NCBI RefSeq assembly: GCF_014200495.1
Contig: NZ_JACHBY010000007.1
Location: 248,001-312,000 of the forward strand
Direction of reading: 5' to 3'
Origin: Mucilaginibacter geliditolerans
GTDB lineage: Bacteria; Bacteroidota; Bacteroidia; Sphingobacteriales; Sphingobacteriaceae
Length of the DNA stretch: 64,000 nucleotides
The position numbers were made by a program, and so were the translations under genes. Position 1 is the first letter of the stretch. Each line of letters begins with the position of its first letter. Shown in pieces: positions 1,977 to 22,780 of this stretch. Below the pieces are notes generated by a model. That model did not search any database and was not told the DNA's origin. It worked only from the letters and a program-made list of their open reading frames with translations.

Positions 1977-2050
1977 GCGCCTATAGCTCAGTTGGTTAGA
2001 GTAGAAGACTCATAATCTTTTGGTCCCTGGTTCGAGCCCAGGTGGGCGCA
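1977..2050 (+). tRNA. tRNA-Met (anticodon CAT)
   Basis: A full cloverleaf is visible: acceptor stem GCGCCTA paired with TGGGCGC (one G-T pair), D-stem GCTC/GAGT, anticodon stem GAAGA/TCTTT around loop CTCATAA, and T-arm CCTGG-TTCGAGC-CCAGG. The discriminator base is A at 2050 and CCA is not encoded. CAT could also be a lysidine-modified tRNA-Ile, which sequence alone does not settle; the first pair G-C excludes an initiator with a mismatch there. The last 16 bases are the left copy of the island's direct repeat, so this gene is the integration target. Confidence 0.9.
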
Positions 2051-2052
2051 CA
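2035..2052 (+). repeat. Left attachment-site repeat (attL) inside tRNA-Met
   Basis: This is the left copy of the perfect 18-bp direct repeat AGCCCAGGTGGGCGCACA. It overlaps the T-stem and acceptor 3' strand of tRNA-Met. Confidence 0.8.
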
Positions 2053-2073
2053 AAACGGCATTTTTGCCGATCT

Positions 2074-2110
2074 AAAAACCCTCTAAGTCGTTGATTTAGA
2101 GGGTTTTTTA
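2074..2110 (+). terminator. Rho-independent terminator after tRNA-Met
   Basis: AAAAACCCTCTAA and TTAGAGGGTTTTT form a long stem with a T tract. Being inside the left repeat boundary, it would have been brought by the island; the copy at 22785-22820 would be the tRNA's original terminator. Confidence 0.8.
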
Positions 2111-2160
2111 TTTTATTCCAATCCTTTTCAGTCCTTACGAATACACACTTTGGAACACCA

Positions 2161-2306
2161 ATCCGGCGACCAGAAATAAGTTTTTATTTTTGGTCGCTAA
2201 AAAGCGCTAATGAATTGTATTACAGTTAATTAAGTATATAAAAAAAGACTAAAAAGCACTCAGAAAGACTGTAAAAATAAATTTATCCGGCGACCATTGA
2301 GCGACC
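2161..2306. repeat. Cluster of GCGACC(A) boxes, probable integrase arm-type sites
   Basis: The 12-mer ATCCGGCGACCA occurs at 2161-2172 and again at 2285-2296. The core also appears inverted as TGGTCGC at 2191-2197 and as GCGACC at 2301-2306. Four copies within 146 bp between the tRNA repeat and the integrase gene is the usual place for recombinase arm-binding or excisionase sites. The rest of 2111-2363 shows no gene. Confidence 0.5.
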
Positions 2307-2363
2307 TGAAAAATGACGATTTCGGGTGTAATTAATCATTTATTCAATAAAATCTGTTAAAAG

Positions 2364-3194
2364 ATGAGAACATCGCAGTCATTTGGTGTGCATTTCACCA
2401 TTAAAAAGGACAGGGCTAAGGACGGTACTACCAATGTCTATGCAGCCATTACGATCAACAAGGAAAAAACGCTTTTTGCCTTAAAGCACTATGTAAAGGT
2501 GGAGAACTGGGACAAAGGCCGTGGCAGCCTGAAAGTGAAGGTCCCGGAAGCAAAAGAAACAAACGCTTACCTGGAAAAGGTTAAGTTTACGATCACCACT
2601 TATTATCAGCAATTGCAGATTGCCGGCAAAGAGGTCACCCCGTTATTACTAAAAGCCATGTTCCTCGGCGAGGAAACAGAGGAAACCTGCTCGCTGAGCA
2701 AACTCATGGATTATCATCATGAGGTCGCCTCAGCCTCTTTGACCTGGAGTACACTCAAACATTATGCGGTGACCCGCCGCTACCTGGAAAAATTCCTGAA
2801 GGAAAAGCGTAACACGACCGAGGTCCGTATCAATGATATCGACTACAAGTTTATTATTGACTTTGAAACCTTTCTCCGTAACCATAAGCCAAAGGATCAT
2901 CAAAAGCCGCTGAATAATAACGGGGTTATGAAACACCTGATCCGCCTGCGCAAAATGACCACGCTGGCATTAAAGCTTACCTGGGTATCTAAAGACCCCT
3001 TTAAGAATTACAAGTTCCGTTATAAGAAAGTAGAGACTGCTTTTCTTAACCAGACAGAACTGAACACTATTCAAAACAAAGCGTTTTCGGCGGAGCGGCT
3101 GAACGTGGTACGCGACCTATTTGTATTCAGCTGTTATACCGGTCTTTCCTTTATCGATCTGATGAATTTAAAGGAAATCGGAATGGTAAAGTAA
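2364..3194 (+). pseudogene. Truncated tyrosine recombinase (integrase)
   Basis: The N-terminal arm-binding domain (about residues 5-95), the SAM-like core-binding domain (about 105-210) and the first part of the catalytic domain (FLNQTELNTIQ and DLFVFSCYTGLSFIDLMNL, about 228-272) are clear and typical of Bacteroidota integrases of about 400 residues. The frame ends at residue 276, so the catalytic histidine, second arginine and nucleophilic tyrosine are all missing. The end lies in sequence that belongs to a truncated AraC gene on the other strand, which indicates a deletion join. The protein would be inactive. It sits 312 bp after the tRNA repeat, the expected place for the island's integrase. 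Confidence 0.85.
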
Positions 3195-3914
3195 ACGTTT
3201 GGCCTCGAGGATTACCCGCTGCTGGATGTGATAAGACACCGGTTGGCCGGTTGTGATTTTGACGCATTCGTTCATATAAGCGGTAGACAAATGCAGTTTT
3301 TCCGAATAATCAGACGGCCGTTTGAGTTGGGTAAAATGCTGCGCCAGTTCATCCCGGAATGCTTTAGTCACGAGTTCTGACCGGGATAATTTATCCGCCG
3401 GTTTAATTTGGGCGGCATAAGTAGCAATGATCAGCCCAACCAGGCCATTAATATGGTCGTGGAGAGGGGAGCGGTAAAGGAGGTCTCTTTTCCGTTCGGC
3501 AATTTTGATGCAGAAGGCCGCCGCTTCGGATAAAAACCCAAACGTTTCCGGGTTAAGCGGAACCGGGGCAGCAGGGCTAATGTCTTCCAGTAATTTCAGG
3601 TATTCCGGGTTGAGTGTTTCGTTATTGATGGCCCAGGCACTGACAGTCACATTGTCAAATCCGATGATCCGGTGGATTTGGTCTGGATGCATAAAAATGG
3701 CAGCCGGGGAATAGATTTGATATTCCTGAAAGTCGATTTCAATATTCACGCTACCTGTTTCGAGCAGGAAAAAGGAATGACGGTCATGGCGCTCCGGCTG
3801 TTCCCATTCTCCTAGAGCCGGCAGGTTTTCAAAAGAAAACCGTTCAATGCTGATACCTGTGCCGGATTCGTCTCCGAATTGATTTACAGGTATGGACTGG
3901 GTTTTTCTTGGCAT
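3168..3914 (-). pseudogene. AraC-family regulator with cupin-type N-terminus, 3'-truncated
   Basis: The first 170 residues look like an AraC ligand-binding cupin (HDRHSFFLLETGSVNIEID, FMHPDQIHRI). The C-terminus begins the AraC DNA-binding domain (STAYMNECVKITTGQPVSYHIQQRV is split here only for length) and reaches EAKRLLYHSDFL, then stops at residue 248. Full members continue with the second helix-turn-helix (VKEIAxxLGF) for another 40-50 residues. The missing part begins exactly where the opposing integrase remnant starts, so both genes were cut by the same deletion. With only the first DNA-binding helix pair, function is doubtful. It lies inside the island, so it may regulate nothing now. 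Confidence 0.75.
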
Positions 3915-4347: not shown

Positions 4348-5361
4348 ATGAAAAAGTTAGTCCTTAAGGATGTCGCTAAGCATGTGGGTGTATCAACTGC
4401 CCTTGTTTCTTATGTGCTAAACGGCCAGGCAGAGGAAAAACAAGTCAATAAGGAAACTGCTAAGCGGATCTTGAAAGCTGTTGAAGAGCTTAATTACCGG
4501 CCCAACCAAATTGCTAAAAGTTTGAAAATGCAAAAAACTTTTACGATCGGCCTTGTAGTAGCAGATATAAATTATAGATTTAGTACGGGTATTACCAGGG
4601 CTATCGAATCGGAGGCTAAAAAGAATAAGTATACGGTAATCTACGGCAGTTCAAATGAAAGTAAGGAAAAGTTTGTAGAGTTAATTAATGTTTTCGTAAA
4701 CCGGCGGGTGGATGGCCTTATACTTGTTGCTGCTGAAAATTCTCAGGATCAGATCAAACTTTTACAGAAATCGGGAACGCCTTTTGTGTTGATAGACAGG
4801 ATTTTTCCGGAAATAAAAACCAATTATATCGCACTTGATAATTATCAGGCCGCGTATGCATCTACTGAATATTTGATTAAAAAGGGGCATAAAAGGATTG
4901 CCCTGATCAACTATGAAACTTCACTGTTTCATCTCCATGAACGGGACCGTGGTTACTTTGAAGCTTTAAAAGATAATAATATAACCTTTAAAAAGGAATG
5001 GCATCAAAAGGTAAGTAACGAAAATGTTGTTAAAGATGTTCAATCGGGCATCGTTAATATATTAGGCCTAAAACAACCTTGCGATGCCGTGTTTTTTGCC
5101 ACAGATACACTTACATTACATGGTTTAAAATACCTGATTGACAAAAAAATAAATGTACCCAATGATATTTCTGTATTGAGCTTTGATGGCTCGGATGTGT
5201 TTGATTTATTTTATTGCCCTATTACGCATTCTAAACAGCCGCTGGAGGAAATGGGAAAGCTTGCCGTAAATACGGTTATTGAATTAGTTAATCAGGGCAA
5301 AATAAATAAGCAGATCAGTTTGGAAGCCGACATCATTGTTGGCAAGTCTTGTAAAGAGTAA
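4348..5361 (+). CDS. LacI-family transcriptional regulator of the fructan-type locus
   Basis: The 337-residue protein begins with a LacI helix-turn-helix (LKDVAKHVGVSTALVSYVLNG, about residues 5-25) and hinge helix (YRPNQIAKSLK), followed by a periplasmic-binding-protein-like sugar sensor (TIGLVVADI onward, ending with DISVLSFDGSD and SKQPLEEMGKLA). It is the first gene of the cargo and is followed by the symporter after 63 bp. Near-identical CG-centred palindromes before lacI, the transporter and susC are the natural binding sites. A fructose-type effector is inferred from the GH32 neighbours and not visible in the protein. Confidence 0.88.
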   Translation: MKKLVLKDVAKHVGVSTALVSYVLNGQAEEKQVNKETAKRILKAVEELNYRPNQIAKSLKMQKTFTIGLVVADINYRFSTGITRAIESEAKKNKYTVIYGSSNESKEKFVELINVFVNRRVDGLILVAAENSQDQIKLLQKSGTPFVLIDRIFPEIKTNYIALDNYQAAYASTEYLIKKGHKRIALINYETSLFHLHERDRGYFEALKDNNITFKKEWHQKVSNENVVKDVQSGIVNILGLKQPCDAVFFATDTLTLHGLKYLIDKKINVPNDISVLSFDGSDVFDLFYCPITHSKQPLEEMGKLAVNTVIELVNQGKINKQISLEADIIVGKSCKE

Positions 5362-5377
5362 TTTTTTTGATTAATAA

Positions 5378-5424: not shown

Positions 5425-6798
5425 ATGCCAATAAAAAGTAATGTATTGTTAATAGCGGTCATAGCTGCAACCGGGGGCCTGCTATTTGGATTTGACACGG
5501 GGGTAATTTCCGGCGCACTTCCATTTCTTAAAGACTATTGGAAATTGAATGATACCGATCTGGAATTACTTACCACAGCCGTTTTAATAGGGGCTGTATT
5601 GGGTGCGATATCCAGTGGTAAGCTATCTGATTATTTAGGTCGGAAAAAAATGATCATTATTAATGCTATTATTTTCACTGTTGGCGCCATGGGCTGCGGT
5701 TATGCGCAATCTTTTAATCTGCTATTGATTATGCGTATAATAGTGGGCGTGGCAATTGGCATTACTTCTTATGTAGTACCTATGTATATTTCGGAAATCT
5801 CCCCGGCTGCCAAAAGGGGAGCGCTGGTTACCCTTAATCAGTTAATGATCACCATTGGTTTATTAGCTTCGTATATAGCTGATTATGATTTTTCCGATAA
5901 TAATAATCCTGAATCATGGCGGTGGATGTTTATAGTTGGTTTATTCCCTGCTTTAATATTATTGATAGGTATGTTCTTTCTACCTGAAACCCCCAGGTGG
6001 TTGATCTCTAAGAACAGGCTGCAGGAGGGGAAAAAAATCCTGATGAGTGTTGAAGATCCGCTTTTGATAAATGATATTTATAAGGAGCTAATTAAAGATA
6101 ATGAATTGGCAAGTGGCCAGCAATCTGAAGTAAAAGAAATTTTAAAGCCCTGGTTAAGGCCTGCACTTATTATCACTATCGGCATCTTCTTTTTTCAACA
6201 ATTTTCTGGCGTTAATACTATTATTTATTACTCCCCAATCATCTTTAAAATGGCTGGCATTACCGGAAATTCAACCTCTATTATTCCATCCATCATAATA
6301 GGCATAGTGAATGTGTTCGCTTGTGTGGTTTCAATTGTGTTTTTAGATAGAATAGGCAGGCGAAAATTATATATAATAGGTATTATGGGGATGATCCCCT
6401 CACTAGCTATAGCGGGCATTTGCTTTATTTTTAAAGCGGAGCTAGGCAGCAGCCTAATCTACCTTTCGGTTTTGAGTATTGTTTCCTTTATCATTTTTAT
6501 CAATATCAGCCTGTCACCCCTGGGCTGGCTGCTCATTAGCGAGGTTTTTCCGGTAAAAGTGCGGGGGTTAGGTATGAGTATAGGTTCATTATCTCACTGG
6601 GGGTTTAATGCCATTATAGCGTTTACTTTTTTAACCCTTGCTAATGGAATAGGCATAGGCGGCACGTTTTGTTTGTATGCAGCAGTTTGTGTTGTGGGGC
6701 TGATATGGGGATATTATTATATACCCGAAACTAAAGGAAAAACGCTCGAACAAATAGAAGAACATTGGCGGCAGGGGAAAAGCCCCAGGAGCCTTTAG
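5425..6798 (+). CDS. Sugar:H+ symporter, MFS sugar porter family
   Basis: The 457-residue inner-membrane protein has the sugar-porter signatures in order: GGLLFGFDTGVISGALPF in helix 1, GRKKM after helix 2, PETPRWLI before the central loop, QQFSGVNTIIYYSP in helix 7, DRIGRRKLY and the closing PETKGKTLEQIE. About 12 membrane segments are present and the length matches XylE/GalP-type carriers. It would import the monosaccharide released by the locus, by context fructose. It follows lacI and leads an operon with the three oxidoreductases. An operator lies just upstream. Confidence 0.88.
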   Translation: MPIKSNVLLIAVIAATGGLLFGFDTGVISGALPFLKDYWKLNDTDLELLTTAVLIGAVLGAISSGKLSDYLGRKKMIIINAIIFTVGAMGCGYAQSFNLLLIMRIIVGVAIGITSYVVPMYISEISPAAKRGALVTLNQLMITIGLLASYIADYDFSDNNNPESWRWMFIVGLFPALILLIGMFFLPETPRWLISKNRLQEGKKILMSVEDPLLINDIYKELIKDNELASGQQSEVKEILKPWLRPALIITIGIFFFQQFSGVNTIIYYSPIIFKMAGITGNSTSIIPSIIIGIVNVFACVVSIVFLDRIGRRKLYIIGIMGMIPSLAIAGICFIFKAELGSSLIYLSVLSIVSFIIFINISLSPLGWLLISEVFPVKVRGLGMSIGSLSHWGFNAIIAFTFLTLANGIGIGGTFCLYAAVCVVGLIWGYYYIPETKGKTLEQIEEHWRQGKSPRSL

Positions 6799-6830: not shown

Positions 6831-7868
6831 ATGAAACAAGCAGTATTAGAAACGCCGGGGAAAATCGGGTTCAGAGATATTCCTATGCCTGGGCCATTAA
6901 AACCAAATGAGATTTTACTCCGCATTAAAAAAATTGGGGTTTGTGGTTCGGATATCCATGTATTTCATGGAAAACATCCATTTGTAACCAGGTACCCGGT
7001 TATCCAGGGCCATGAATATAGTGGCGAAGTAGCAGAAATAGGATTAGCAGTTACTGCTGTGAAGCCGGGCATGAAAGTCACAGCAAGGCCGCAGGTAGTT
7101 TGCGGGCATTGTTCACCATGTTTGCGTGGGCAATATAATGTGTGCCAAAACCTTACCGTTCAGGGTTTTGTAGCCAATGGTTCAGCACAGGAGTATTTTG
7201 TGGTGACTGAAGACAGGATAGTAGTAGTACCCGATAACGTTTCCTACGAACAGGCTGCTTTAATTGAACCCGCGGCAGTAGGCGCGCACTCTACAATAAG
7301 AGCCGGTAAACTTGAAGGGAAAAATGTAGTGGTAGCTGGTGCCGGTACAATAGGTAACCTTATTGCCCAGTTTGCTATTGCACGTGGCGCTAAAAAAGTA
7401 TTATTGACTACCGCTAAAAGCGATTTTCGGTTAGGTATTGCCAAAGAATGCGGTATAAAAGAAACGGCGAACCTGTCAAAAGAAAGTTTTCCGGATGCGG
7501 TAAAACGGGTATTTGGCAGTGAGGGTTTCCAGGTGGGGTTTGAAGCTGCAGGGGCGCAAGGTGCTGTTACCGATCTGGTAGCAGGGGTTGAAAATGGAGG
7601 TACGGTTATCATCGTAGGTGTTTTTGAAGAAAACCCGGTGGTTAATATGGGCTTTTTAGGGGAACATGAATTGAACGTATTAGGTAGCATGATGTACCGG
7701 CACGAAGATTATGAAGAAGCCGTACAATTCATAGCTGATGAAAAACTGATTACCGCACCGCTGATCACTAGCAGGTTCCCTTTTAGTGAATACCTTGAAG
7801 CTTACCATTTTATTGAAAAACAAGGTGATAAATCATTAAAAGTGATGATTGATGTAGCAGGAAATTAA
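6831..7868 (+). CDS. Zinc-dependent medium-chain dehydrogenase (sorbitol dehydrogenase-like), copy 1
   Basis: The 345-residue protein is an MDR-family alcohol dehydrogenase. Catalytic zinc ligands are expected in CGSDIHVFHGKHPF and GHEYSGEV; the structural zinc site CGHCSPCLRGQYNVC has four cysteines; the nucleotide fold is VVVAGAGTIGNLIAQFA. Relatives oxidise polyols or secondary hydroxyls of sugars with NAD(P). It lies 32 bp after the symporter and 24 bp before a close paralogue, in the same operon. The exact substrate is unknown; sorbitol/mannitol to fructose is plausible from the fructan context. Confidence 0.82.
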   Translation: MKQAVLETPGKIGFRDIPMPGPLKPNEILLRIKKIGVCGSDIHVFHGKHPFVTRYPVIQGHEYSGEVAEIGLAVTAVKPGMKVTARPQVVCGHCSPCLRGQYNVCQNLTVQGFVANGSAQEYFVVTEDRIVVVPDNVSYEQAALIEPAAVGAHSTIRAGKLEGKNVVVAGAGTIGNLIAQFAIARGAKKVLLTTAKSDFRLGIAKECGIKETANLSKESFPDAVKRVFGSEGFQVGFEAAGAQGAVTDLVAGVENGGTVIIVGVFEENPVVNMGFLGEHELNVLGSMMYRHEDYEEAVQFIADEKLITAPLITSRFPFSEYLEAYHFIEKQGDKSLKVMIDVAGN

Positions 7869-7892: not shown

Positions 7893-8927
7893 ATGAAACA
7901 GGCAGTGTTACAAAGGCCGGGCTTAGTTGAGATAAGAGATGTTCCGCTTCCGCGGGAGATTAAAGCCAATGAAATTTTATTGAAAATACACCGGGTGGGT
8001 GTATGTGGGTCAGATGTACATATGTATTATGGCAAACACCCTTTTGCCAATACTTATCCAATGGTCCAGGGGCATGAATATGGCGGTGAAGTGACTGCTG
8101 TAGGTAAAGATGTAACCTTACTTAAGCCCGGTATGAAGGCTACAGCAAGGCCTCATCTGGTATGCGGACATTGCCCGGCGTGTTTACGGGGGCAGTATAA
8201 TGTATGCCAAAATCTTAAAGTTGAAGGATGTGCGGGGCCTGAAGGGGCTGCACAAGAGTATTTTATTATACCCGAGGACCGTGCAGTAGTTATTCCGGAT
8301 ACACTTAGCTATGAGCAGGCAGCTATGATTGAGCCGATAGCCGTTGGCGCACATGCAACAAAAAGAGTTGGCGACCTTACCGGCAAAAATGTAGTGGTGA
8401 CCGGAGCTGGTACCATAGGAAATTTGGTAGCCCAATTTGCTGTTGCAAGGGGTGCTAAAAAAGTGATGATAACTGATCTGGTTGATCATAAACTAGAGAT
8501 TGCACGCGAGTGCGGCATTTCAGCAACTGCCAATCTTAAAAAAGAGGCTTTCAGCGATGCTGTGAAACGTGTATTTGGCGATGAAGGTTTTCAGGTTGCA
8601 TTTGAAGCTGTGGGTGTTCAATCAGCATTAACTGAATTAATTGGCGGGGTTGAAAACGGCGGCACTGTTGTCATTATCGGGGTTTATGTGCAAAACCCGG
8701 TGGTAAATATGGGTTTTTTGGGTGAACATGAATTAAATGTTTTAGGCAGCATGATGTACAGGCATGAAGACTATCTTGAGGCTGTTGATTGGGTTTCACA
8801 AGGGAAAATAAAGACAAGTCCCTTAATTACGCACTACTTTTCATTGGACGAGTATCATGACGCTTATAAGTTCATCGAATCAAATGCCGACCAGGCGGTT
8901 AAAGTTATGATTGAAGTTACAGAATAA
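7893..8927 (+). CDS. Zinc-dependent medium-chain dehydrogenase, tandem paralogue (copy 2)
   Basis: At 344 residues this aligns with copy 1 throughout, keeping CGSDVHMYYGKHPF, GHEYGGEV, the four-cysteine structural site CGHCPACLRGQYNVC and VVVTGAGTIGNLVAQFA. Long blocks such as GFLGEHELNVLGSMMYRHEDY are the same in both apart from nothing visible, while the substrate-side loops differ (FVANG versus CAGPEG). Retention of two diverged copies side by side suggests two related substrates or a two-step conversion. It is 14 bp from the UxaB-like gene downstream. Confidence 0.82.
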   Translation: MKQAVLQRPGLVEIRDVPLPREIKANEILLKIHRVGVCGSDVHMYYGKHPFANTYPMVQGHEYGGEVTAVGKDVTLLKPGMKATARPHLVCGHCPACLRGQYNVCQNLKVEGCAGPEGAAQEYFIIPEDRAVVIPDTLSYEQAAMIEPIAVGAHATKRVGDLTGKNVVVTGAGTIGNLVAQFAVARGAKKVMITDLVDHKLEIARECGISATANLKKEAFSDAVKRVFGDEGFQVAFEAVGVQSALTELIGGVENGGTVVIIGVYVQNPVVNMGFLGEHELNVLGSMMYRHEDYLEAVDWVSQGKIKTSPLITHYFSLDEYHDAYKFIESNADQAVKVMIEVTE

Positions 8928-8941: not shown

Positions 8942-10468
8942 ATGATACTTTCTAAAAATAATTTGCCCGGTCTGTCTGGTGCTCCAGGTGTTAAATTTCC
9001 GGATCAAAAGGTATTTTCTTTACCTGAAAAGGTTTTGCAATTCGGCACAGGTGTTTTTGTAAGAGGGTTGATAGATTATTACATCAATAAAGCCAACCAC
9101 GCGGGAATTTTCAACGGAAGAGCAGTTCTGATTAAGTCAACGGAAGCCGGCGATATCAATTCCTTCAATGTACAGGATAACCTGTTTACACAAATTATGA
9201 AAAGCACAAATGATGGTGTAGAGATTGAAGAAACTATTGTAAACGCAGCTATCAGCAGGGTAATAAATGCCAAAGATTGGGCACAGGTACTGGCTTGTGC
9301 AGCCAACCCGGGAATAAAAATTATCATTTCTAACACAACTGAAATTGGTATAATACTGGATGAAACGGATTCCATTAGCTTTCGTCCGCCGGTGTCTTTT
9401 CCTGCTAAATTACTAAGTTTCCTTTATGCCCGATACCATGCTTTTAAAGGAACTGGCGATAGTGGAATGGTCATCATACCAACAGAGCTTATCCCCGACA
9501 ATGCAAGCAAGCTTAAAGCAATATTAAACGTACTGGCTGCTAATGAAAATTTGCCGGTCGGTTTTATTGACTGGCTAAATAACAGTAATGATTTCTGCAA
9601 TTCGCTGGTTGACAGAATTGTGCCAGGAAGACTTCCACTAAATGAGCATCTGGAAAAACAAAAAGAGCTGGGTTATGAGGATGAACTCATGATTATGAGC
9701 GAAACATTTGGTTTATGGGCGATTGAAACCAGTAATGAGCAAACTAAAGCTATTCTATCCTTTAGTAAAGCTGATTCAGGGATACATATTGTGCCCAATA
9801 TTGATAAATTCAGGGAATTGAAATTGCGGTTGCTGAATGGTTCACATAACCTTTCCTGTGCTGTCGGATTTCTTGCCGGGTTTAAAACCGTTAAAGAAGC
9901 CATGGCCAATCCTGTTTTTGATAGGCTGATGCAGCAACTGATCAACACGGAAATAGCGGCAGCTATTGTTTCGCCTGCTATAACAATAGAAGATGCCAGG
10001 GAATTTGGGACTGAAGTGTTAAAACGATACCGGAATCCTTATATAGAGTTTGATTGGCTAAGTATTTGTGTTCAGGATACTTCTAAAATTAAGATCAGGG
10101 CGGTCCCGATCGTTCAGCAGCATTTTCGGAAATATGGATTTGTTCCGGATGCTATTTGCCTTGGTTTCGCTGCCTACATCTTATTTATGCATGCTAAAAC
10201 TGAAATTGACGGCGATCGCTACGGTATTTCGGACGGACAGAAATATAAAATTATAGATGATTTTGCCGGATTGTTATCACAAAAATGGCATTCCTATCAG
10301 GGATTAGATCTTGTTCGGTCTGTGCTTGGCGATAAGGCCTTATGGGACCAGGATTTAAGTGTATTTACAGATTTTGCTGAAAGAGTGCTTTTTTTTATGA
10401 TCAATATGCAAGTTTCAGGCTTTTACGAGACCGTCAAACTAATTGATGATCAGCAATATGGTACCTGA
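8942..10468 (+). CDS. Tagaturonate/fructuronate reductase-like protein (mannitol dehydrogenase family)
   Basis: The 508-residue protein has the polyol-dehydrogenase family fold. The N-terminal KVLQFGTGVFVRGLIDYYINK resembles UxaB (altronate oxidoreductase) more than mannitol 2-dehydrogenase. IIISNTTEIGI and the C-terminal KLRLLNGSHNLSCAVGFLAG (conserved Lys, Asn and His region) complete it. UxaB reduces tagaturonate to altronate, but no uronate isomerase or dehydratase is present here. In a GH32 locus the substrate may instead be a neutral ketose such as fructose. It ends the transporter operon; a new promoter follows. Confidence 0.7.
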   Translation: MILSKNNLPGLSGAPGVKFPDQKVFSLPEKVLQFGTGVFVRGLIDYYINKANHAGIFNGRAVLIKSTEAGDINSFNVQDNLFTQIMKSTNDGVEIEETIVNAAISRVINAKDWAQVLACAANPGIKIIISNTTEIGIILDETDSISFRPPVSFPAKLLSFLYARYHAFKGTGDSGMVIIPTELIPDNASKLKAILNVLAANENLPVGFIDWLNNSNDFCNSLVDRIVPGRLPLNEHLEKQKELGYEDELMIMSETFGLWAIETSNEQTKAILSFSKADSGIHIVPNIDKFRELKLRLLNGSHNLSCAVGFLAGFKTVKEAMANPVFDRLMQQLINTEIAAAIVSPAITIEDAREFGTEVLKRYRNPYIEFDWLSICVQDTSKIKIRAVPIVQQHFRKYGFVPDAICLGFAAYILFMHAKTEIDGDRYGISDGQKYKIIDDFAGLLSQKWHSYQGLDLVRSVLGDKALWDQDLSVFTDFAERVLFFMINMQVSGFYETVKLIDDQQYGT

Positions 10469-13956: not shown

Positions 13957-15675
13957 ATGAAAAAATACTTACTAATAGCGGCTTGCCTGTACATCGTATT
14001 ACCTTCCTGTAAAAAGGATTTGGTTTCAGTGCCGCAAGGTTCAATTGACAGTGCCGAACTGAATACACCCGCTAACATTGATAAAATGGTCATCGCGGCT
14101 TATTCCTCATTAGGGAATGATGACATCGTAACCTCCAACAGCCTGTGGCCGGAGGGTGACCTTCGGTCAGGAGATTCGCACAAAGGCGGAGATGGATTAG
14201 GAGATAATAGCGGTTGGAATGATTATGAACAATTTGTCACAAATCGTAATGATAATACCTATACCGACCAGATGTGGTATCAGCTTTATTCAGGCATAGC
14301 GAGAGCCAATGATGCCTTAGCCAGGGTAAACGGCATAAGTGCTGCTGCCTATCCCAATAAACCTTCCAGACAGGGTGAATTACACTTTTTAAGAGCATGG
14401 TGGTACTTCAAATTAAAAATCCTTTACAACCGGATTCCTTATATTGACGAGACCATGGCGAAGAGTTCGTATATCAACATATCCAATGTACAGTATACCA
14501 GTGATCAGTTATGGACTAAAATTGCAGCTGATTTCAGACTTGCGGCGAATATCTTACCTGCAACACAAACCGATATTGGCAGGCCAAATAAGTTTACTGC
14601 AATGGCCTATTTAGCAAAAACACTACTATATCAGGCATATACCCAGGATGGCACCTATACGGTAACCGGCATCGATGCAGCTAAGCTTACCGAGGTAAAT
14701 ACACTTTGTGACAGCGTATCTGCTTCAGGGCAATATTCGTTAGATCCGGATTTCGGCTATAACTTTTTAACGGAACACAACAACAGCCCCGAATCGGTAT
14801 TTTCCATCCAATATTCTATAAACGATGGAACAGCAAAAGGCAGAATAGACATGGGGCACGCATTAGGTTATACCATGAATGCTGCCTATGGCTGCTGTGG
14901 TTTTCATGTGCCCAGCCAGGATATGGTAAACGCTTTTAAAACAGATGCAAATGGTTTACCAATGTTTACCGGCTATAATACAGGTGATCCTAAACAAGGG
15001 ACGGACTTTTTGAATTATAATTTTGATCCCAGGCTCGAACATACGGTTGGCATACCCGGTAATCATCCCTTCAAATATGAACCAAACCTAAACATGGATG
15101 CGTCTTGGGCAAGGGATCCGGCTGTTTATGGTGTATTCGCCAGCCTAAAGGATCTGGTTGCTCCTGATGATCCATCATTTCAAAAGATACCCCCTTTTAT
15201 GTCCAGTTCCAAAAACTGGGAGGATATGCGTTATGCGGATGTATTGCTTATTAAAGCAGAAGCCTTAATTGAGTTAAACCGTGAGACTGAGGCATTGCCC
15301 TTAATCAATGCTTTGCGTACCAGGGCAGGAAATAGCCTGGGTATGTTAAAAAATATGCAAGGTGGATATTCTACAAATTATAAGATTACCACTTATCAGC
15401 CGGGTGTAAATTGTACCTGGACACAGGACTATGCGCGGCAGGCATTAAGGTGGGAAAGAAGACTCGAATTGGCGGAAGAAGGAAACAGATTTTTCGATTT
15501 GGTACGGTGGGGAATAGCCGATACTTATATCAATGCTTATATTGCTGTTGAATCAACTAAATGGCCATACTTGAAATCAGCTCATTTTACAAAAGGAAGG
15601 GATGAATACTTACCCATATCGTTAAATCAGATGAATTTCAGCAAGGGCTTATATAAACAAAACCCAGGATATTAA
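13957..15675 (+). CDS. SusD-like surface glycan-binding lipoprotein
   Basis: The 572-residue protein begins with a lipoprotein signal (lipobox LPSC, Cys18) followed by KKDLVSVPQG. The SusD tetratricopeptide-like alpha-helical frame is recognisable (GELHFLRAWWYFKLKILYNRIPY, FTAMAYLAKTLLYQAY, ADVLLIKAEALIELNRETEALPLINALRTRAG, LRWERRLELAEEGNRFFDLVRWG). It pairs with the adjacent SusC as lid of the import complex on the cell surface. It is followed by a strong stem-loop before the first GH32. Confidence 0.93.
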   Translation: MKKYLLIAACLYIVLPSCKKDLVSVPQGSIDSAELNTPANIDKMVIAAYSSLGNDDIVTSNSLWPEGDLRSGDSHKGGDGLGDNSGWNDYEQFVTNRNDNTYTDQMWYQLYSGIARANDALARVNGISAAAYPNKPSRQGELHFLRAWWYFKLKILYNRIPYIDETMAKSSYINISNVQYTSDQLWTKIAADFRLAANILPATQTDIGRPNKFTAMAYLAKTLLYQAYTQDGTYTVTGIDAAKLTEVNTLCDSVSASGQYSLDPDFGYNFLTEHNNSPESVFSIQYSINDGTAKGRIDMGHALGYTMNAAYGCCGFHVPSQDMVNAFKTDANGLPMFTGYNTGDPKQGTDFLNYNFDPRLEHTVGIPGNHPFKYEPNLNMDASWARDPAVYGVFASLKDLVAPDDPSFQKIPPFMSSSKNWEDMRYADVLLIKAEALIELNRETEALPLINALRTRAGNSLGMLKNMQGGYSTNYKITTYQPGVNCTWTQDYARQALRWERRLELAEEGNRFFDLVRWGIADTYINAYIAVESTKWPYLKSAHFTKGRDEYLPISLNQMNFSKGLYKQNPGY

Positions 15676-15749: not shown

Positions 15750-17249
15750 ATGTATCTATCTAATTTTATAAATGTGAAAAAGCTAATTCTTACCGGCTTG
15801 CTTGCCATTTTAGCCACCTTTACAAATGCCCAAATAGGTGTAAAGTATGATCCTGCTATACAACCTGCTAAAAATATGCAGTACTTTAAACCGGTTGGGA
15901 ACTTATCAGTCGGCGACTGTATGCCTTTTTATCACGACGGCGTTTTCTCGAACTATTGGTTACTGGATTCGTTACATGGTGAAAATTTACATGGGCTTGG
16001 TGGTCACCAATGGGTTATCAGTTCAACCACCGATTTAAAAACGTGGAAACAAGGCCCAATAGTGCTGGGGATTGATGAAGCTTGGGAAAAATCAATTTGT
16101 ACGGGTTCAATTGCCTTTTACAAAGGTAAGTACTATGCGTTTTATGCAACGAGATTAATTGATAAGGGACAAGTAAACGAACAATTGAGTTATGCGGTAA
16201 GTAATGATGGCGTTCATTTTGATAAGCAAAAGCCAAATCCTTTTTATAAATCGGCCCCGGGCTATAGTAAAAGGGATTTTAGGGACCCTAAAGTATTTAT
16301 TGATGAAAATGGAGAGTTTCATTTATTTGTAGCCAGTGACCAGGAGACTCCGGTTTTAAACCATGCTTCCGGTTGTTTGGTTCATTTATCATCAAAGGAT
16401 CTTAAAACTTGGACTGTGCACGACCCTATATTGACAGGTCAGCCATCAACGCCCGAATGTCCTGATTACTTTTATTGGAAAGGCTGGTATTATTTGGTTT
16501 ATAGTGATAACAGCAATACGCATTATGTAAAATCTAAAAAACCTTATGGGCCGTGGGAGCAACCACGTTATCAGGCTTTGAATGAGGATTGGGCAAACGT
16601 GGAAAAAACAGCCGAATTTCATGATGATAGGAGGCTTTCTGTAGCATGGATACCAGACAGGCGCGAAAGTAAAGATAACAATAATGAAATTTTTGGCGGC
16701 AACATGATCTTTAGGGAAGTAAGCCAGGAAGCGGATGGTACACTTGATACACGTTTCCCAGCTGAAATGATACCTGAAACCGGGCTAGCATTATACAATA
16801 GGATTATAACAGATCTGTTATCTGCTTCAATTGATGCGAATAGTGTTGCTATTGATGCTCCGGGAGGTGTAGGTGCTGCGCATATTGAAGGGATTCCAGC
16901 TAATTGCAGAATAACAATGCTGATAGAACCATCGGGCGCTGATGAGGAATATGGTTTGAGCTTATTATCCAATGAACATGCGGAAAATGGTTACCGGCTT
17001 AACTTTTCTCCTGATAGTAAAATTGTAAGTCTCGGTAATACAAAAATTGAGGCAGTAGACGGTTTGTACAAGCCAATTACGCTGGATGTAGTTATAAAAA
17101 ATGGGATCATAGATGTAAGTATTGATAACAGGAGAACCGTTATTAACCGCACTTATGAACAGAAAGGAAGTTTCCTTTGGTTGTATGCCAAACATGGCAA
17201 AGTAAATTTCAAATCAATAAAAGTTAGTCCTTTAGTAGAAAACAATTAA
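15750..17249 (+). CDS. Glycoside hydrolase family 32-like enzyme, exported
   Basis: The protein of 499 residues has a signal peptide (about residues 9-28, ending FTNAQ) and a five-bladed beta-propeller. GH32 motifs are seen in variant form: VGDCMPFYHDG takes the place of the usual WMNDPNG, RDFRDPKVF holds the RDP transition-state motif, and TPECPDYFYW holds the EC acid/base motif. A C-terminal beta-sandwich follows from about residue 370. It would release fructose from fructans or sucrose-type sugars. A GTG at 15774 is an alternative start and gives a better-proportioned signal peptide. The GDxMPFYHDG form is a recognised divergent GH32 subgroup, so bond specificity is open. Confidence 0.78.
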   Translation: MYLSNFINVKKLILTGLLAILATFTNAQIGVKYDPAIQPAKNMQYFKPVGNLSVGDCMPFYHDGVFSNYWLLDSLHGENLHGLGGHQWVISSTTDLKTWKQGPIVLGIDEAWEKSICTGSIAFYKGKYYAFYATRLIDKGQVNEQLSYAVSNDGVHFDKQKPNPFYKSAPGYSKRDFRDPKVFIDENGEFHLFVASDQETPVLNHASGCLVHLSSKDLKTWTVHDPILTGQPSTPECPDYFYWKGWYYLVYSDNSNTHYVKSKKPYGPWEQPRYQALNEDWANVEKTAEFHDDRRLSVAWIPDRRESKDNNNEIFGGNMIFREVSQEADGTLDTRFPAEMIPETGLALYNRIITDLLSASIDANSVAIDAPGGVGAAHIEGIPANCRITMLIEPSGADEEYGLSLLSNEHAENGYRLNFSPDSKIVSLGNTKIEAVDGLYKPITLDVVIKNGIIDVSIDNRRTVINRTYEQKGSFLWLYAKHGKVNFKSIKVSPLVENN

Positions 17250-17262: not shown

Positions 17263-18237
17263 ATGTTATTAGGTTTTGATATTGGAGGAACAAAATGCGC
17301 GGTTATTATAGGCAAACAAAATGCTGACAATGAAATTGCTATTATAGCAAAAGAGTCTATGCCTACTAATCTTCCGGTATATGAAATGATTGATTTGTTA
17401 TTTGCCACCGCTGAGAAATTACTTTTGAATCATCATGTGGATATAGAACAGGTTAAAGGCATAGGTATCAGCTGTGGCGGTCCCTTAAGTAGTAAAAAAG
17501 GCCTTATTTTATCACCGCCAAACCTGCCTGGCTGGGATAATATTCCAATAGTTGAGCTGGCCGAGAAGCGTTTTAAAACAAAAGTGCTTTTACAAAATGA
17601 TGCCAACGCCTGTGCTATTGCCGAATGGAAGTATGGTGCGGGAAAGGGGTATGATAACCTGCTATTTTTAACTTTCGGCACAGGTATGGGAGCAGGATTA
17701 ATTCTTAATGGCAAACTTTACTCGGGTATTTCTGATCTGGCGGGTGAGGTTGGTCATATCCGGCTGGCAGACAATGGCCCCGTTGGTTTTGGTAAGTCCG
17801 GCTCATTTGAAGGATTTTGCAGTGGGGGTGGAATCGCGCAGCTTGGCCAAATAAAGGCGCGCGAACAACTACAGATGGGCATACCCGTATCATTTTGTGA
17901 TAATTTGACAAACCTTCCGCTAATTACTGCAAAATTAGTTGCTGAAGCTGCTTATAAAGGAGATGAGGTTGCGATAGAGGTATACCGTATCTGCGGTGAA
18001 TATCTGGGAAAAGCATTGTCGCTATTTATTGATATACTTAATCCGGAGCTCATTATTTTAGGAAGCATATATGGACGGGCCAAAGCATTGCTTGAACCGG
18101 CAATGAATAAAGTAATTCAACGAGAAGTTTATATCGATTCAAAAGAAGCATGCCGCATAGTTTCCGCCGGATTGTCTGAAAATATAGGTGATATGGCTGC
18201 TCTTTCACTGGCATTAATGTGTAATGAACAGAATTAA
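17263..18237 (+). CDS. ROK-family sugar kinase, probable fructokinase
   Basis: The 324-residue cytoplasmic protein has the ROK phosphate-binding start (LGFDIGGTKCAV), LLQNDANACAIAEW with the catalytic Asp, and LTFGTGMGAGLILNG. The metal-site histidine is kept (GEVGHIRL), but the usual CxCGxxGC zinc cysteines are replaced by a PVGFGKSGSFEGFCSGGG segment. Phosphorylation of fructose is inferred from the GH32 genes on both sides. It is 13 bp after the first GH32. Glucokinase or another hexokinase role is the alternative. Confidence 0.78.
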   Translation: MLLGFDIGGTKCAVIIGKQNADNEIAIIAKESMPTNLPVYEMIDLLFATAEKLLLNHHVDIEQVKGIGISCGGPLSSKKGLILSPPNLPGWDNIPIVELAEKRFKTKVLLQNDANACAIAEWKYGAGKGYDNLLFLTFGTGMGAGLILNGKLYSGISDLAGEVGHIRLADNGPVGFGKSGSFEGFCSGGGIAQLGQIKAREQLQMGIPVSFCDNLTNLPLITAKLVAEAAYKGDEVAIEVYRICGEYLGKALSLFIDILNPELIILGSIYGRAKALLEPAMNKVIQREVYIDSKEACRIVSAGLSENIGDMAALSLALMCNEQN

Positions 18238-18317: not shown

Positions 18318-20336
18318 ATGAAAATAATCCTTAGCTATATATTAGCAGCTTTTCTTTTGTTATACGGTTCAGCTTTTGCCCAGGAACGTAAAGCGCCTGC
18401 GTACCCGCTTATTACGCATAACCCTTACTTTAGCATCTGGTCAACGTCAGACAGCCTAAACACCGCCACAACCACACACTGGACGGGTAAAAATCAACCC
18501 TTACTTGGTTTTATTAAGGTTGATGATCAAATTTATCGATTTATGGGTAAAGGAGACGAGGTGCATAAAACTATTAAGTTGGCCGAACAAAGAGACGTTG
18601 AGATAAACGCTACTCAAACCATTTATAAGTTTGTGTGTGGTAGTGCCGATCTGCAGCTGACGTTCACATCACCATTATTAATTTCCGATTTAGCTTTACT
18701 ATCAAGGCCGGTAAGTTATATTACTTACGACGTAAAATCAAATGATGGTAAACCACACAAGATAAAAGTATTATTCAGCGCATCGGCAGATGTAGCGCGC
18801 AATAAGCCATCGCAACCAGTAATGGCGCAAAAGGTCGCATCAGCTACATTATCAGTATTAAAGGCAGGGACCGTTGAGCAGCCTATCCTGCAAAAAAAAG
18901 GGGACGACCTGCGCATTGATTGGGGATATGTATATATAGCTACATTAAAAAATACGAATGCTGTACAATATATAACTACCAGTACCGAAGCGGTCAGCTC
19001 TTTTATAAATAATGATTACAAGATAACCGTTAAACAAGATACTGATATAGTTTTAAACACTGTAATACCGTTTGGCGTGGTTGGCAATACCCCGGTAGAA
19101 AAATTTATAGAGATGGGTTATGATGATATTACCCCAATCCAATATTTTCATACCAACTTAAAACCATGGTGGCAAAATACCGGCTTTATCAATTTTGGCC
19201 AGGTTTTAGCAAAATCGGCTGTAGAGTATCCCGGAATAATTAAAAGATGCCAGGCCTTTAATACTTCTCTCTATAAAGATGCTGTTACTGCCGGTGGTGA
19301 AAAATATGCTAAGTTATGTGTGTTGGCCTACCGCCAAAGCATTGCGGCACATACGCTGGTAAAAAGCCCGCAGGGAGAGATCTTGTGGTTATCAAAAGAG
19401 AATTTTAGCAATGGGTCAATCAATACAGTTGATGTTACCTATCCGTCAGCTCCTTTATACCTGATCTACAATCCAAAGTTAATGGAGGGGATGCTGAACG
19501 GCATATTCTATTTCAGCGAAAGCGGAAAATTTAAAGATAATTTTGCAGCACATGACCTGGGTACCTATCCTTTAGCAAACGGCCAAACCTACGGTGAAGG
19601 TATGCCGGTGGAGGAGTCAGGCAATATGATTATTTTAGTTGAGGCTATTGCAAAAGCTGAAGGTAATGCAGAATATGCGCGTCCGCACTGGAAGACCTTG
19701 AGTCGTTGGGTTAACTACCTGGTGAATGAAGGCTTCGACCCTAAAAACCAATTATGCACAGATGATTTTGCCGGCCACCTGGCCCGTAATGCCAATTTAT
19801 CAGTAAAAGCGATTGTCGGTATTGCCTGCTATGCACAGCTGGCTGATCGGTTGGGCGAGAAGCAAACCGCTGCAAAATATCGTGAAATAGCCAAAGGTAT
19901 GGTGGGCGAATGGATCCGGTTATCGGGGGATGCCGATCATTCAACCTTAACATTTGAAAACCCAGGAACCTGGAGCCAAAAGTATAATATGGTTTGGGAT
20001 AAGGTTTTAGGTCTTGACCTGTTTCCACAGGAAGTTTATAACAAGGAGATCAAATTCTATCTCTCTAAACAAAATACCTATGGTTTACCATTGGATAGCC
20101 GGAAGACCTACACAAAATCCGACTGGATATTATGGACTGCTACACTGGCCGTCAACCAAAAGGATTTTGAGGCGCTGATAGACCCGGTATATAAATATGC
20201 CTTAGAAACCCCGACCCGTGTACCCCTGAGCGACTGGCATGAAACAACTGACGGCAAGCAGGTAGGTTTCCAGGCAAGGAGCGTAGTAGGAGGGTATTTT
20301 ATGAAGATGTTGTATGAAAAATTTAATGCCAGATAG
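18318..20336 (+). CDS. GtaA-like DUF4964/DUF5127/DUF4965 protein, exported
   Basis: The 672-residue protein has a signal peptide (ends SAFAQE) and then the domain series found in proteins annotated as glutaminase family: an N-terminal beta-sandwich (APAYPLITHNPYFSIWS, residues 25-280) and an alpha/alpha toroid (DLGTYPLANGQTYGEGMPVEESGNM, LSVKAIVGIACYAQLA, WSQKYNMVWDKVLGLDLFP). Fungal GtaA gives the family name, but many Bacteroidota members sit in polysaccharide loci and their reaction is not known. Its place between the kinase and a GH32 suggests a glycan role. It is somewhat shorter than the 680-850 residues usual for the family. Confidence 0.75.
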   Translation: MKIILSYILAAFLLLYGSAFAQERKAPAYPLITHNPYFSIWSTSDSLNTATTTHWTGKNQPLLGFIKVDDQIYRFMGKGDEVHKTIKLAEQRDVEINATQTIYKFVCGSADLQLTFTSPLLISDLALLSRPVSYITYDVKSNDGKPHKIKVLFSASADVARNKPSQPVMAQKVASATLSVLKAGTVEQPILQKKGDDLRIDWGYVYIATLKNTNAVQYITTSTEAVSSFINNDYKITVKQDTDIVLNTVIPFGVVGNTPVEKFIEMGYDDITPIQYFHTNLKPWWQNTGFINFGQVLAKSAVEYPGIIKRCQAFNTSLYKDAVTAGGEKYAKLCVLAYRQSIAAHTLVKSPQGEILWLSKENFSNGSINTVDVTYPSAPLYLIYNPKLMEGMLNGIFYFSESGKFKDNFAAHDLGTYPLANGQTYGEGMPVEESGNMIILVEAIAKAEGNAEYARPHWKTLSRWVNYLVNEGFDPKNQLCTDDFAGHLARNANLSVKAIVGIACYAQLADRLGEKQTAAKYREIAKGMVGEWIRLSGDADHSTLTFENPGTWSQKYNMVWDKVLGLDLFPQEVYNKEIKFYLSKQNTYGLPLDSRKTYTKSDWILWTATLAVNQKDFEALIDPVYKYALETPTRVPLSDWHETTDGKQVGFQARSVVGGYFMKMLYEKFNAR

Positions 20337-20355
20337 AAATCTATTAAACAAAAAA

Positions 20356-22563
20356 ATGAAAAGAATTTTGATATTACCGGCAGTCTGCTTGTTACTTGCA
20401 AGCACGACCTGGCCGCCTCTCAATAGTTTTAAAGATGCGGTTGCGGCCTGGAATTTTGCTGATATTAATGACCTGACACCTGAAAACAGCCAATTGAATA
20501 TTCACGGAGATGTGAAGTTTATAAAGCTTGAAGGTGCAGAAGCAGAAGCCTCGAAGGCAAGGGGGGGCGATGGCATTGCCGCGCAATTTAATGGTGGCTG
20601 GCTTGACGCAGGACAGGGAATAAATGAAGAGCTGAATTTAACAGGTAAAAACGTATCTGTTCTAGTGAGACTAAAACCAACTGGAGTGAACGGTCTTACG
20701 CCTATTTTAGGTAAAACGGGTAATGATCAGACTATAGCTTACAGTATTTATTTTGATAAAATTGGAGAAGATACCTATGTCGAGTCTAAAATGGGTAGTG
20801 ATGATATAGCCGGTGCGCATGTATTAAAGTATAAAATTCCGAAGGATGAAATTAGCCGGTGGCATGATATTGTGCTCCGTTTTAATGGTCGGCTATCCCA
20901 GCTATTTGTTGATGGTTCACTCCGTGATGATGAAGTTACGGTTGGCGAGATACGGAACTGGAACCATAGCCCTTTCCTTATCGGTGCGCAATATAACAGT
21001 GCGGATGCAGCTAAGGCTGAGGGGCCTGAACAAAATCGTTTCAAGGGTCTGATAGATCATATTGTACTATGGAACCGTTACCTAACAGATGCAGAGGTAA
21101 AAGCGGTATCAGGTGTTACAGAATTAAGGGACGGGAAACCTATATATTATAACGAAAAATATCGGCCGCAATTCCATTTCTCGGCAAAAAAGAATTGGTT
21201 GAACGATCCTAACGGGCTTGTTTATTATAATGGTGTTTATCATCTTTTTTTTCAGTATATGCCGCCAAACCGCCCTGGCGCTTATAAAGACTGGGGCCAT
21301 GCTATCAGTAAAGATCTTGTACATTGGGAACAAATACCTTATCATATTACACCCCACAAGGTATGGTCCGGGTGCTGGTCGGGGTCTGCAGTGGTGGATG
21401 TTAATAATTCAGCAGGATTTCAGTCGGGAAAAGAAAAAACAATAGTTGCCATGTTAACAAACGGCGGTGATCCAGAAGCCGGACTTGGCCCGATGTGCAC
21501 ACAATGTATAGCCTATAGTACTGATGGGGGAACAACGTTTAGTTATTATGACGGGAACCCGGTAATTCACAATATCTATAAAAGCAACCGGGACCCTAAA
21601 GTAGTATGGGACGACGTGTCAAAAAAGTGGATCATGTCATTGTATATGGATAAGGATTATGATTTTGGGATTTTTTCCTCATCGGATCTTAAAGATTGGA
21701 AACAACTTAGTACGGTTTCGATCGAAGGCGTGAGAGAATGCCCGGGATTCGAGCCTTTACCTGTAGATGGTAATCCGGCCAATAAGAAATGGATATTTTC
21801 AGGCGCAAATGGTGATTACGTAATAGGATCATTTGACGGAATAAATTTTAAGCCGGAAACAAAAGTGTTAAGAGGAGATTATGGAATGAATTATTATGCT
21901 GCGCAAATGTGGAGCGATAATCCTGACGGGCGAAGCATCTCGATCGCCTGGATGCCGACCCAGCATTACCCCGGAATGCCTTTTGAGCAGCAAATGACTT
22001 TCCCAACAACTGTAAGCCTTCGTAGCACTACGGATGGTCTAAAAGCTTTCAGAATGCCTGTAGATGAAATTAGTAAATTATATACTACTGCATACGTATG
22101 GAGAAATGCAAAGCCCAAAAGAGGAAATAATTTATTTAACAAGCTTAATGGCGAATTGTATGATATGAATTTATCCATCGATGTGAAAAAAGCCTCTTCT
22201 TTTAAATTAAAGCTCCGAAATGTGTCGGTGTCGTATAATGCGGCAACAGGTATACTTTCATGCGGGGGAGATGCAGTAAAAAATGGTATTGTACCTGATA
22301 GTCGCATATCATTGGATAAATCGAAGATCAACGTTGAAAATAACATGGGAATGGCCCCGTTAAAACCTTTGAATGGAAAGATCAAACTACGTATATTGCT
22401 TGATCGTACTACGATTGAAGTTTTCGCTAATGATGGTGAAGTAGTTTTATCCTCCTGTTTCATGCCGGAAGATGGTAATAAATTGTGTTCGTTTAGCGCT
22501 AGCGATGACGTTTCTATATCCCAAGCACAAATTTATATGCTAAAATCAGCCTGGATTAAGTAA
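20356..22563 (+). CDS. GH32 levanase/inulinase-like enzyme with N-terminal LamG-like domain
   Basis: From the ATG at 20356 the protein has 735 residues with a signal peptide (MKRILILPAVCLLLAS). A concanavalin-like LamG domain (about 25-255, ending IDHIVLWNRYLTDAEVKAV) precedes a classic GH32 catalytic domain with WLNDPNG (nucleophile Asp), RDPKVVW and ECPGFEP (acid/base Glu), then the C-terminal beta-sandwich (LLDRTTIEVFANDGEVV). It should be an exo- or endo-acting levanase/inulinase. An upstream ATG at 20314 would overlap the previous gene and spoil the signal peptide. It is the last cargo gene. Confidence 0.9.
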   Translation: MKRILILPAVCLLLASTTWPPLNSFKDAVAAWNFADINDLTPENSQLNIHGDVKFIKLEGAEAEASKARGGDGIAAQFNGGWLDAGQGINEELNLTGKNVSVLVRLKPTGVNGLTPILGKTGNDQTIAYSIYFDKIGEDTYVESKMGSDDIAGAHVLKYKIPKDEISRWHDIVLRFNGRLSQLFVDGSLRDDEVTVGEIRNWNHSPFLIGAQYNSADAAKAEGPEQNRFKGLIDHIVLWNRYLTDAEVKAVSGVTELRDGKPIYYNEKYRPQFHFSAKKNWLNDPNGLVYYNGVYHLFFQYMPPNRPGAYKDWGHAISKDLVHWEQIPYHITPHKVWSGCWSGSAVVDVNNSAGFQSGKEKTIVAMLTNGGDPEAGLGPMCTQCIAYSTDGGTTFSYYDGNPVIHNIYKSNRDPKVVWDDVSKKWIMSLYMDKDYDFGIFSSSDLKDWKQLSTVSIEGVRECPGFEPLPVDGNPANKKWIFSGANGDYVIGSFDGINFKPETKVLRGDYGMNYYAAQMWSDNPDGRSISIAWMPTQHYPGMPFEQQMTFPTTVSLRSTTDGLKAFRMPVDEISKLYTTAYVWRNAKPKRGNNLFNKLNGELYDMNLSIDVKKASSFKLKLRNVSVSYNAATGILSCGGDAVKNGIVPDSRISLDKSKINVENNMGMAPLKPLNGKIKLRILLDRTTIEVFANDGEVVLSSCFMPEDGNKLCSFSASDDVSISQAQIYMLKSAWIK

Positions 22564-22590
22564 GTTAATCGAAATCGCACCAAAACGTAG

Positions 22591-22616
22591 CCCTAGTCGG
22601 GCTCGAACCAGGGACC
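22591..22616 (-). other. Inverted tRNA-T-arm-like remnant
   Basis: On the minus strand, 22616-22599 reads GGTCCCTGGTTCGAGCCC, identical for 18 bases to tRNA-Met 2022-2039, and continues GACTAGGGCTAC as if from another tRNA 3' end. No cloverleaf can be completed. It is followed by ATATTTTTGA (22621-22630), the same ten bases that flank the tRNA remnant at 32310. It is probably a leftover attachment site of a related element. Confidence 0.5.
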
Positions 22617-22633
22617 CGCTATATTTTTGATCA

Positions 22634-22665
22634 TTTTTTGGTATTTTTGGTGCTTTTCGGTACTT
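22634..22665. repeat. Three ~10-bp imperfect tandem repeats near the island right end
   Basis: The unit TTTTTGGTAT / TTTTTGGTGC / TTTTCGGTAC is repeated just inside the right attachment repeat. Such iterated boxes at an element end are plausible recombinase arm sites. The remainder of 22666-22762 shows nothing recognisable. Confidence 0.4.
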
Positions 22666-22762
22666 TTGTCATGCCGGAGAGGTGAAGCCCCAAAGCGGCT
22701 ACCAAGCCCTTGTTGAACCTCGTAAGTAGTTGAAAATCAATTGATAATAGAGTCAGGTATAT

Positions 22763-22780
22763 AGCCCAGGTGGGCGCACA
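22763..22780 (+). repeat. Right attachment-site repeat (attR)
   Basis: AGCCCAGGTGGGCGCACA matches 2035-2052 base for base. No tRNA 5' portion precedes it, so it is the displaced 3' end of tRNA-Met. Confidence 0.8.

Follow-up and report, generated by a model that had tools for sequence, protein, structure and literature searches.

How does a complete sugar-utilization locus come to stand behind a tRNA gene, between two copies of the end of that tRNA? The question is raised by a 64,000-nucleotide stretch of Mucilaginibacter geliditolerans (genome 6.5 Mb, 26 contigs), positions 248001-312000 of contig NZ_JACHBY010000007.1 (C7), hereafter the window. Here, tRNA-Met is followed by a 20.7-kb segment, the island, which begins with an integrase remnant and contains a SusCD-type locus. 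A preliminary description of the window had proposed that the locus was moved to this site by tRNA-targeted integration. We find that insertion at tRNA-Met is real, and that the island is very probably the remnant of a larger, conjugative-type element integrated at tRNA-Met, which was shrunk by deletion and now holds a fructan-type locus (Table 1).

The island is inserted at the 3′ end of tRNA-Met

We called tRNA genes with ARAGORN, identified protein domains with Pfam and assigned subfamilies by NCBIfam cut-offs. The 3′ end of the intact tRNA-Met recurs as a direct repeat at both borders of the island. This 18-mer (AGCCCAGGTGGGCGCACA) consists of the final 17 nt of tRNA-Met plus one base, and its only exact copies in the 6.5-Mb genome lie at window positions 2035-2052 and 22763-22780, confirming the bracketing of 20.7 kb that had been described.

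We then compared the site across a genus set of 149 genomes (Mucilaginibacter, Sphingobacteriaceae), own genome included. The closest relative by left-flank gene among the genomes searched (G026; 94% identity at the protein level, 91.6% DNA identity over window 1-2051) has the same tRNA-Met and left flank but no island, and its tRNA is directly followed by a terminator matching window 22781-22849. When the window flanks are joined at the repeat (1900-2052 and 22781-22849), 207 of 230 positions align with G026. This is the empty site that the preliminary description had predicted for a relative lacking the locus, with the terminator at 22785-22820 directly downstream of tRNA-Met; occupation of the same tRNA by the locus in all relatives, which would have contradicted its proposal, is not seen. 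The best SusC match in G026 is 62% identical, the same level as a paralogue in the M. geliditolerans genome, and G026 holds no close copy of the locus. The insertion at tRNA-Met thus follows from the empty site in G026 and from the association of the integrase family with tRNA-Met (see below).

Could the two copies be a chance or dispersed repeat? Orphan tRNA-Met 3′ halves do occur at two other places in the genome: at up to one mismatch, AGCCCAGGTGGGCGCACA has four copies, the two exact ones and two with one mismatch (C1:763036 and C14:25452), both of which are orphan halves in which ARAGORN finds no tRNA. As these further copies are tRNA-derived and one of them precedes another integrase, we rejected a dispersed repeat. 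The chance expectation of an 18-mer in 6.5 Mb is ~3e-5 (base composition only), the exact repeat, whose abundance elsewhere would have spoken against insertion, is confined to this pair, and the site in G026 is empty. Chance or dispersal is therefore scarcely credible.

Table 1 Features of the island and its borders (window coordinates)
Feature	Position	Strand	Basis or remark
tRNA-Met (CAT), intact, 3′ end is attachment site	1977..2051	+	ARAGORN
18-bp repeat, left copy (attL core)	2035..2052	+	exact pair with 22763 only
Replacement terminator brought by element	2074..2108	+	hairpin z -7.5
12-bp direct repeat ATCCGGCGACCA	2161-2172, 2285-2296	+	possible integrase arm sites, putative role
Tyrosine integrase remnant, ORF of 276 aa, catalytic half missing	2364..3194	+	Pfam Arm-DNA-bind_5 and Phage_int_SAM_5 only
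AraC-type regulator, 3′ end cut near integrase junction	3168..3914	-	AraC_binding only, just under Pfam cut-off
LacI-family regulator	4348..5361	+	Pfam
MFS sugar porter	5425..6798	+	Pfam, NCBIfam
Zn-dependent polyol/threonine-dehydrogenase-like enzyme 1	6831..7868	+	no NCBIfam cut-off passed
Zn-dependent polyol/threonine-dehydrogenase-like enzyme 2	7893..8927	+	no NCBIfam cut-off passed
Mannitol-dehydrogenase family, tagaturonate reductase subfamily	8942..10468	+	NF002969, 488.7 bits (cut-off 359)
SusC-type TonB-dependent transporter	10856..13939	+	TIGR04056, 842 bits (cut-off 368)
SusD-type lipoprotein	13957..15675	+	SusD_RagB, SusD-like_3
GH32-family hydrolase a	15750..17249	+	Pfam; RDP and EC motifs by eye
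ROK-family sugar kinase	17263..18237	+	Pfam; no NCBIfam cut-off passed
Glutaminase A-like protein	18318..20336	+	GtaA hairpin, DUF5127, DUF4964
LamG and GH32 hydrolase b	20314..22563	+	nearest by sequence exo-inulinase and invertase chains; WLNDPNG, RDP and EC motifs by eye
Non-coding right end	22564..22762		holds inverted 18-nt tRNA-Met fragment at 22599-22616 (-)
18-bp repeat, right copy (attR core, displaced tRNA 3′ end)	22763..22780	+	exact pair with 2035 only
Terminator behind tRNA before insertion	22785..22819	+	hairpin z -6.6; directly behind tRNA-Met in G026

A truncated integrase joined to a truncated regulator

The integrase remnant reported at the left end of the island was borne out by domain analysis, which recovered the arm-binding and core-binding domains but no catalytic domain. 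The gene adjoins the tRNA, as expected of a tRNA-integrated island, though it is truncated. An intact counterpart of 429 aa adjoins tRNA-Met in another genome (G131), which shares 98% DNA identity with the window from the tRNA through the arm and the gene up to position 3177, where homology stops. No piece of the missing C-terminal half was found anywhere on the island. Integrase and AraC gene, which stops inside its helix-turn-helix region (by eye), are both cut near 3177 and joined tail-to-tail.

The island thus differs from an active integrative and conjugative element (ICE) in its integrase, which is cut at 3177 and lacks the catalytic half, and in conjugation genes, represented in our search by the TraG family (TIGR03783): matches in the M. 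geliditolerans genome fall on C1 and C12 only and none on C7, other tra genes not having been searched. As the integrase is cut before its catalytic half and the contig shows no TraG match, the island has lost the means to move itself. Owing to the absence of TraG and the joining of a truncated integrase to a truncated AraC gene, we read the island as the remnant of a larger element. A plasmid or phage origin was rejected: the island has no near match in 72,556 plasmid records, and its left end no distant match in 50,697 phage records.

The island holds an uninterrupted locus of predicted fructan type

Downstream of the cut AraC gene, eleven open genes from LacI to GH32 follow on one strand without interruption, in agreement with the complete LacI-SusCD-GH32 locus of the preliminary description. 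Adjacent SusC and SusD genes, linked to two GH32 genes and a LacI regulator, are the features of a polysaccharide utilization locus (PUL). Judged from the gene families, its predicted substrate is a fructose-containing (fructan-type) glycan. SusCD would import the glycan across the outer membrane, the two GH32 enzymes would cleave it, and the products would be taken up across the inner membrane by the MFS porter and phosphorylated by the ROK kinase, under LacI control; the three dehydrogenases may interconvert sugars and polyols.

We compared this locus with seven congener loci. Six of them hold a core of LacI, SusC, SusD, MFS, GH32 and ROK genes elsewhere in the chromosome, and the seventh, of M. 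pineti (G094:C7, NZ_FNAI01000020.1), is a long form that includes both Zn-dependent dehydrogenases (ADH) and the tagaturonate-reductase-like gene (MDH). The M. pineti order (LacI, MFS, ADH, ADH, MDH, SusC, SusD, GH32, ROK, GH32) is that of the island, at 64-91% identity, and 10 of the 11 island genes are covered to at least 98% by this locus. It differs in a second LacI gene, in the lack of the glutaminase-like gene, which has no counterpart in any of the seven loci read, and in the absence of a repeat copy on its contig. A donor of the locus was not found: the best relative of GH32 b is 90% identical and lies on a 3.7-kb contig, and the next is 73% identical.

The fructan PUL of Bacteroides thetaiotaomicron reportedly comprises SusCD, GH32 enzymes, a sugar kinase and an inner-membrane transporter, all of which have equivalents in the island, together with a hybrid two-component sensor. 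The island instead has LacI, and in addition the extra dehydrogenases and the glutaminase-like gene.

The right border

The right border is defined by the repeat and the empty site, because the right-end sequence matches none of the other element ends compared. A 58-nt match between window 22723-22780 and another locus (G071) had suggested a conserved right arm; it was carried by the 18-bp core and vanished once the core was removed, in G071 and in eight other loci alike, and we discarded it. The non-coding right end also contains an inverted 18-nt piece of tRNA-Met at 22599-22616 on the minus strand (GGTCCCTGGTTCGAGCCC); the 19-mer around it has no other occurrence in the genome at up to two mismatches.

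tRNA-Met is a frequent integration site in the genus

A tRNA-Met match is present in 135 of the 149 genomes, own included (a few matches are partial). Relatives of the window integrase occupy 30 loci, the window itself among them; of the 29 others fetched from the genus, 23 adjoin a complete tRNA-Met, and the remaining 6 an orphan 3′ end of this tRNA. Conversely, we examined the 30 best-scoring tRNA-Met loci, drawn mostly from smaller genomes and including two truncated at a contig end: an integrase belonging to either of two lineages lies no more than 700 bp away in 12 of them. A common position of the tRNA was not borne out, as only 12 of 30 loci have, within the 1.5 kb upstream, the HAD gene that lies left of tRNA-Met in the window.

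Repeat copies were surveyed in 43 genomes, chosen mostly for an integrase at tRNA-Met. A further same-strand copy lies downstream on the contig in 24 of them (G026, with its next copy 446 kb away, not counted), and nine have at least two downstream copies. The first repeat-to-repeat segments span 13.6 to 234 kb, and the long ones may comprise two or more elements. We searched for TraG in G095, G131 and 22 genomes that have a downstream repeat copy, 24 in all; it occurs in 16 of the 22 first segments. Beside these segments, the island, at 20.7 kb and without TraG, is small.

The cargo varies. SusC and SusD occur together in 5 of 14 other first segments (G084, G108, G170, G066 and G091), with ~10 kb of G108, 5 kb of G091 and 4 kb of G066 unread. 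No such pair was found in the remaining nine (G092, G061, G027, G036, G099, G081, G060, G001 and G011, of which G011 and G036 were read incompletely, short of 3 and 2 kb), nor in two second segments (G071 and G153), 78 kb of G095 or 39 kb of G131, two loci without a known right copy. G027 has one weak SusC-like match without SusD, beyond its first segment. In G084, SusCD is accompanied by GH92 and fucosidase genes, and in G066 by GH20 and a rhamnosidase-like gene; the tRNA-Met island of G131 carries defence-like genes (by eye). With SusCD in only 5 of 14 segments, a rule that tRNA-Met collects sugar islands is not supported, and tRNA-Met is therefore better described as a general dock.

In G095 (L111, C1:3140000-3159999), a xylan-like cluster adjoins an integrase at tRNA-Met; by eye, it comprises GH43, mannonate-dehydratase-like, LacI, xylose isomerase, xylulokinase, GH115-like and GH10-like genes. 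The G095 genome gave no second copy of the repeat.

Terminators suggest an earlier occupant

Each border of the island has its own terminator. The left one recurs next to the intact G131 integrase (98% over 162 bp), and similar terminators lie beside other integrases of the same lineage. The right one had been taken for the original terminator of the tRNA. It was indeed the previous one, being directly behind tRNA-Met in G026, but it is perhaps not ancestral, because similar sequence forms the arm of elements with integrases of a second lineage. The DNA following tRNA-Met in G026 shares 85% identity (121 bp) with the left arm of such an element in G018 (L133), and 70% identity (157 bp) with the arm on M. 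geliditolerans contig C14. The window right flank itself matches L133 at 78% over 63 bp, with no match to the C14 and L160 arms. From this resemblance, an older element had probably left its mark at tRNA-Met before the present island arrived. Alternatively, second-lineage elements may carry a terminator taken from a host.

Neighbouring DNA and other tRNA fragments

Beyond window 22849, M. geliditolerans and G026 diverge, and homology returns at 32169. The intervening window 22850-32168, to the right of the island, holds a second succinate dehydrogenase operon with transporter, porin and hydratase genes. This operon is missing from the corresponding place in G026, which has 3.2 kb of other genes there and retains window 22846-23107 at 4.23 Mb.

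Contig C14 carries two partial tRNA-Met copies 24.5 kb apart, nt 30-75 at C14:25423 (L052) and nt 18-49 at C14:49956 (L055). Each lies shortly upstream of an integrase start (L055 by eye), without a tRNA gene, and a SusCD-GH2-like locus lies left of the C14:25423 copy. At C1:1172585 (L062), an apparent integrase 3′ end is followed by a tRNA-like 3′ fragment resembling tRNA-Asn, and no tRNA gene was found; by eye, this is likely another att remnant.

Discussion

We propose the following history. An element has integrated at tRNA-Met, at the final 17 bp of the gene, presumably through a tyrosine integrase of the Arm-DNA-bind_5/SAM_5 type, as the family of the remnant suggests. It rebuilt the 3′ end of the tRNA and brought a terminator with it, as seen at the left border, while the old 3′ end and the terminator that had followed it now stand 20.7 kb to the right. 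Elements of conjugative type fill tRNA-Met in other Mucilaginibacter, and this one was probably of the same type. A later deletion would account for the observed fusion of mid-integrase to mid-AraC and would have removed the catalytic half and any transfer genes. What remains is an island with no means of movement of its own and an uninterrupted sugar locus. Of the claim that the locus was moved by tRNA-targeted integration, the insertion stands, on the repeats and the empty site; the joint arrival of locus and integrase we can only infer, since no other tRNA-Met island read carries this sugar locus.

That absence is one of several observations that weigh against the proposed history. G026 is a single relative at ~92% DNA identity here, and gain and precise excision look the same from G026 alone. 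The G+C content of the locus (40.1%) is like that of its flanks (39.0 and 40.8%). The right end contains no recognizable element gene, and its 199 bp (core excluded) have no match in nine other loci except for the inverted tRNA piece. In the repeat survey, 8 of the 43 genomes hold just one copy, and in another 10 all additional copies lie elsewhere; the genomes had been picked mostly for an integrase at tRNA-Met.

Some of this would suit a different order of events, in which the locus was not cargo of the element but recombined later into an element remnant at the tRNA; the integrase/AraC junction would then mark where it was joined on the left. The locus family sits elsewhere in congener chromosomes, in core form in six of seven and in long form in M. 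pineti; no repeat copy lies near the locus in G094, G099, G061, G016 or G025, the five of these genomes covered by the repeat survey, and no integrase relative was found in the G094 flanks read. The AraC piece, at 48.2% G+C against ~40% around it, makes the left part look like a patchwork, and the right arm is unlike other arms. Against later recombination, 200 bp separate the end of the locus from the right repeat; the insertion would need to have fallen between the old element ends or to have replaced its cargo. We regard this order of events as a serious but less probable account. A further option concerns the present rather than the past: with exact core repeats at both ends, the island may be cis-mobilizable and still move in trans with an integrase from another element, and the C14 integrase gene of the same genome adjoins a 46-bp orphan tRNA-Met 3′ half. 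That integrase, however, is of another lineage, its left arm differs, and the genome holds no second match to the window integrase remnant at E 1e-30; continued mobility is unlikely. We retain the remnant of a larger tRNA-Met-integrated element as the preferred reading.

Both PULs carried by integrative elements and ICE-like islands of Mucilaginibacter have been published (PMC8845570, PMC5849685, PMC6316836). PMC6316836 describes CTnDOT-like ICEs and genomic islands of Mucilaginibacter with TraG-type modules, many near IntDOT-related tyrosine recombinase genes, and with adaptive cargo. The present island shares the genus and the carriage of adaptive genes with them; theirs confer heavy-metal resistance, and the word 'tRNA' does not occur in the main text of that report, whereas here a sugar locus lies at tRNA-Met without TraG. 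In gut Bacteroides, PULs such as that for porphyran are carried on ICEs, according to PMC8845570 and PMC5849685. A SusCD-type locus is linked to an integrative element in both settings; unlike the gut cases, ours concerns another genus and another cargo, with an integrase remnant and both core repeats still visible. Among open-licence papers, no title was found that dealt with the island locus or with tRNA-Met as a dock in Mucilaginibacter.

The island offers a clean case of a whole SusCD locus on a tRNA-integrated island without mobility of its own: the filled and the empty site can be compared, and the break in the integrase is mapped. PULs on integrative elements are described from gut Bacteroides, and this one lies outside that group. 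The island looks like the decayed state that PMC8845570 considers, in which ICEs targeting tRNAs later lost their mobile DNA, here with both core repeats readable. We lean slightly towards a wider model, in which the tRNA-Met 3′ end would be a genus-wide dock of Mucilaginibacter, where two integrase lineages insert conjugative elements repeatedly, sometimes in tandem, and every element replaces the tRNA terminator by its own. Loss of the backbone would then fix cargo such as the fructan-type locus, and one tRNA would record the layers, here an older second-lineage element followed by the present island. Terminator exchange and layering at a single tRNA would be testable across the genomes of the genus.

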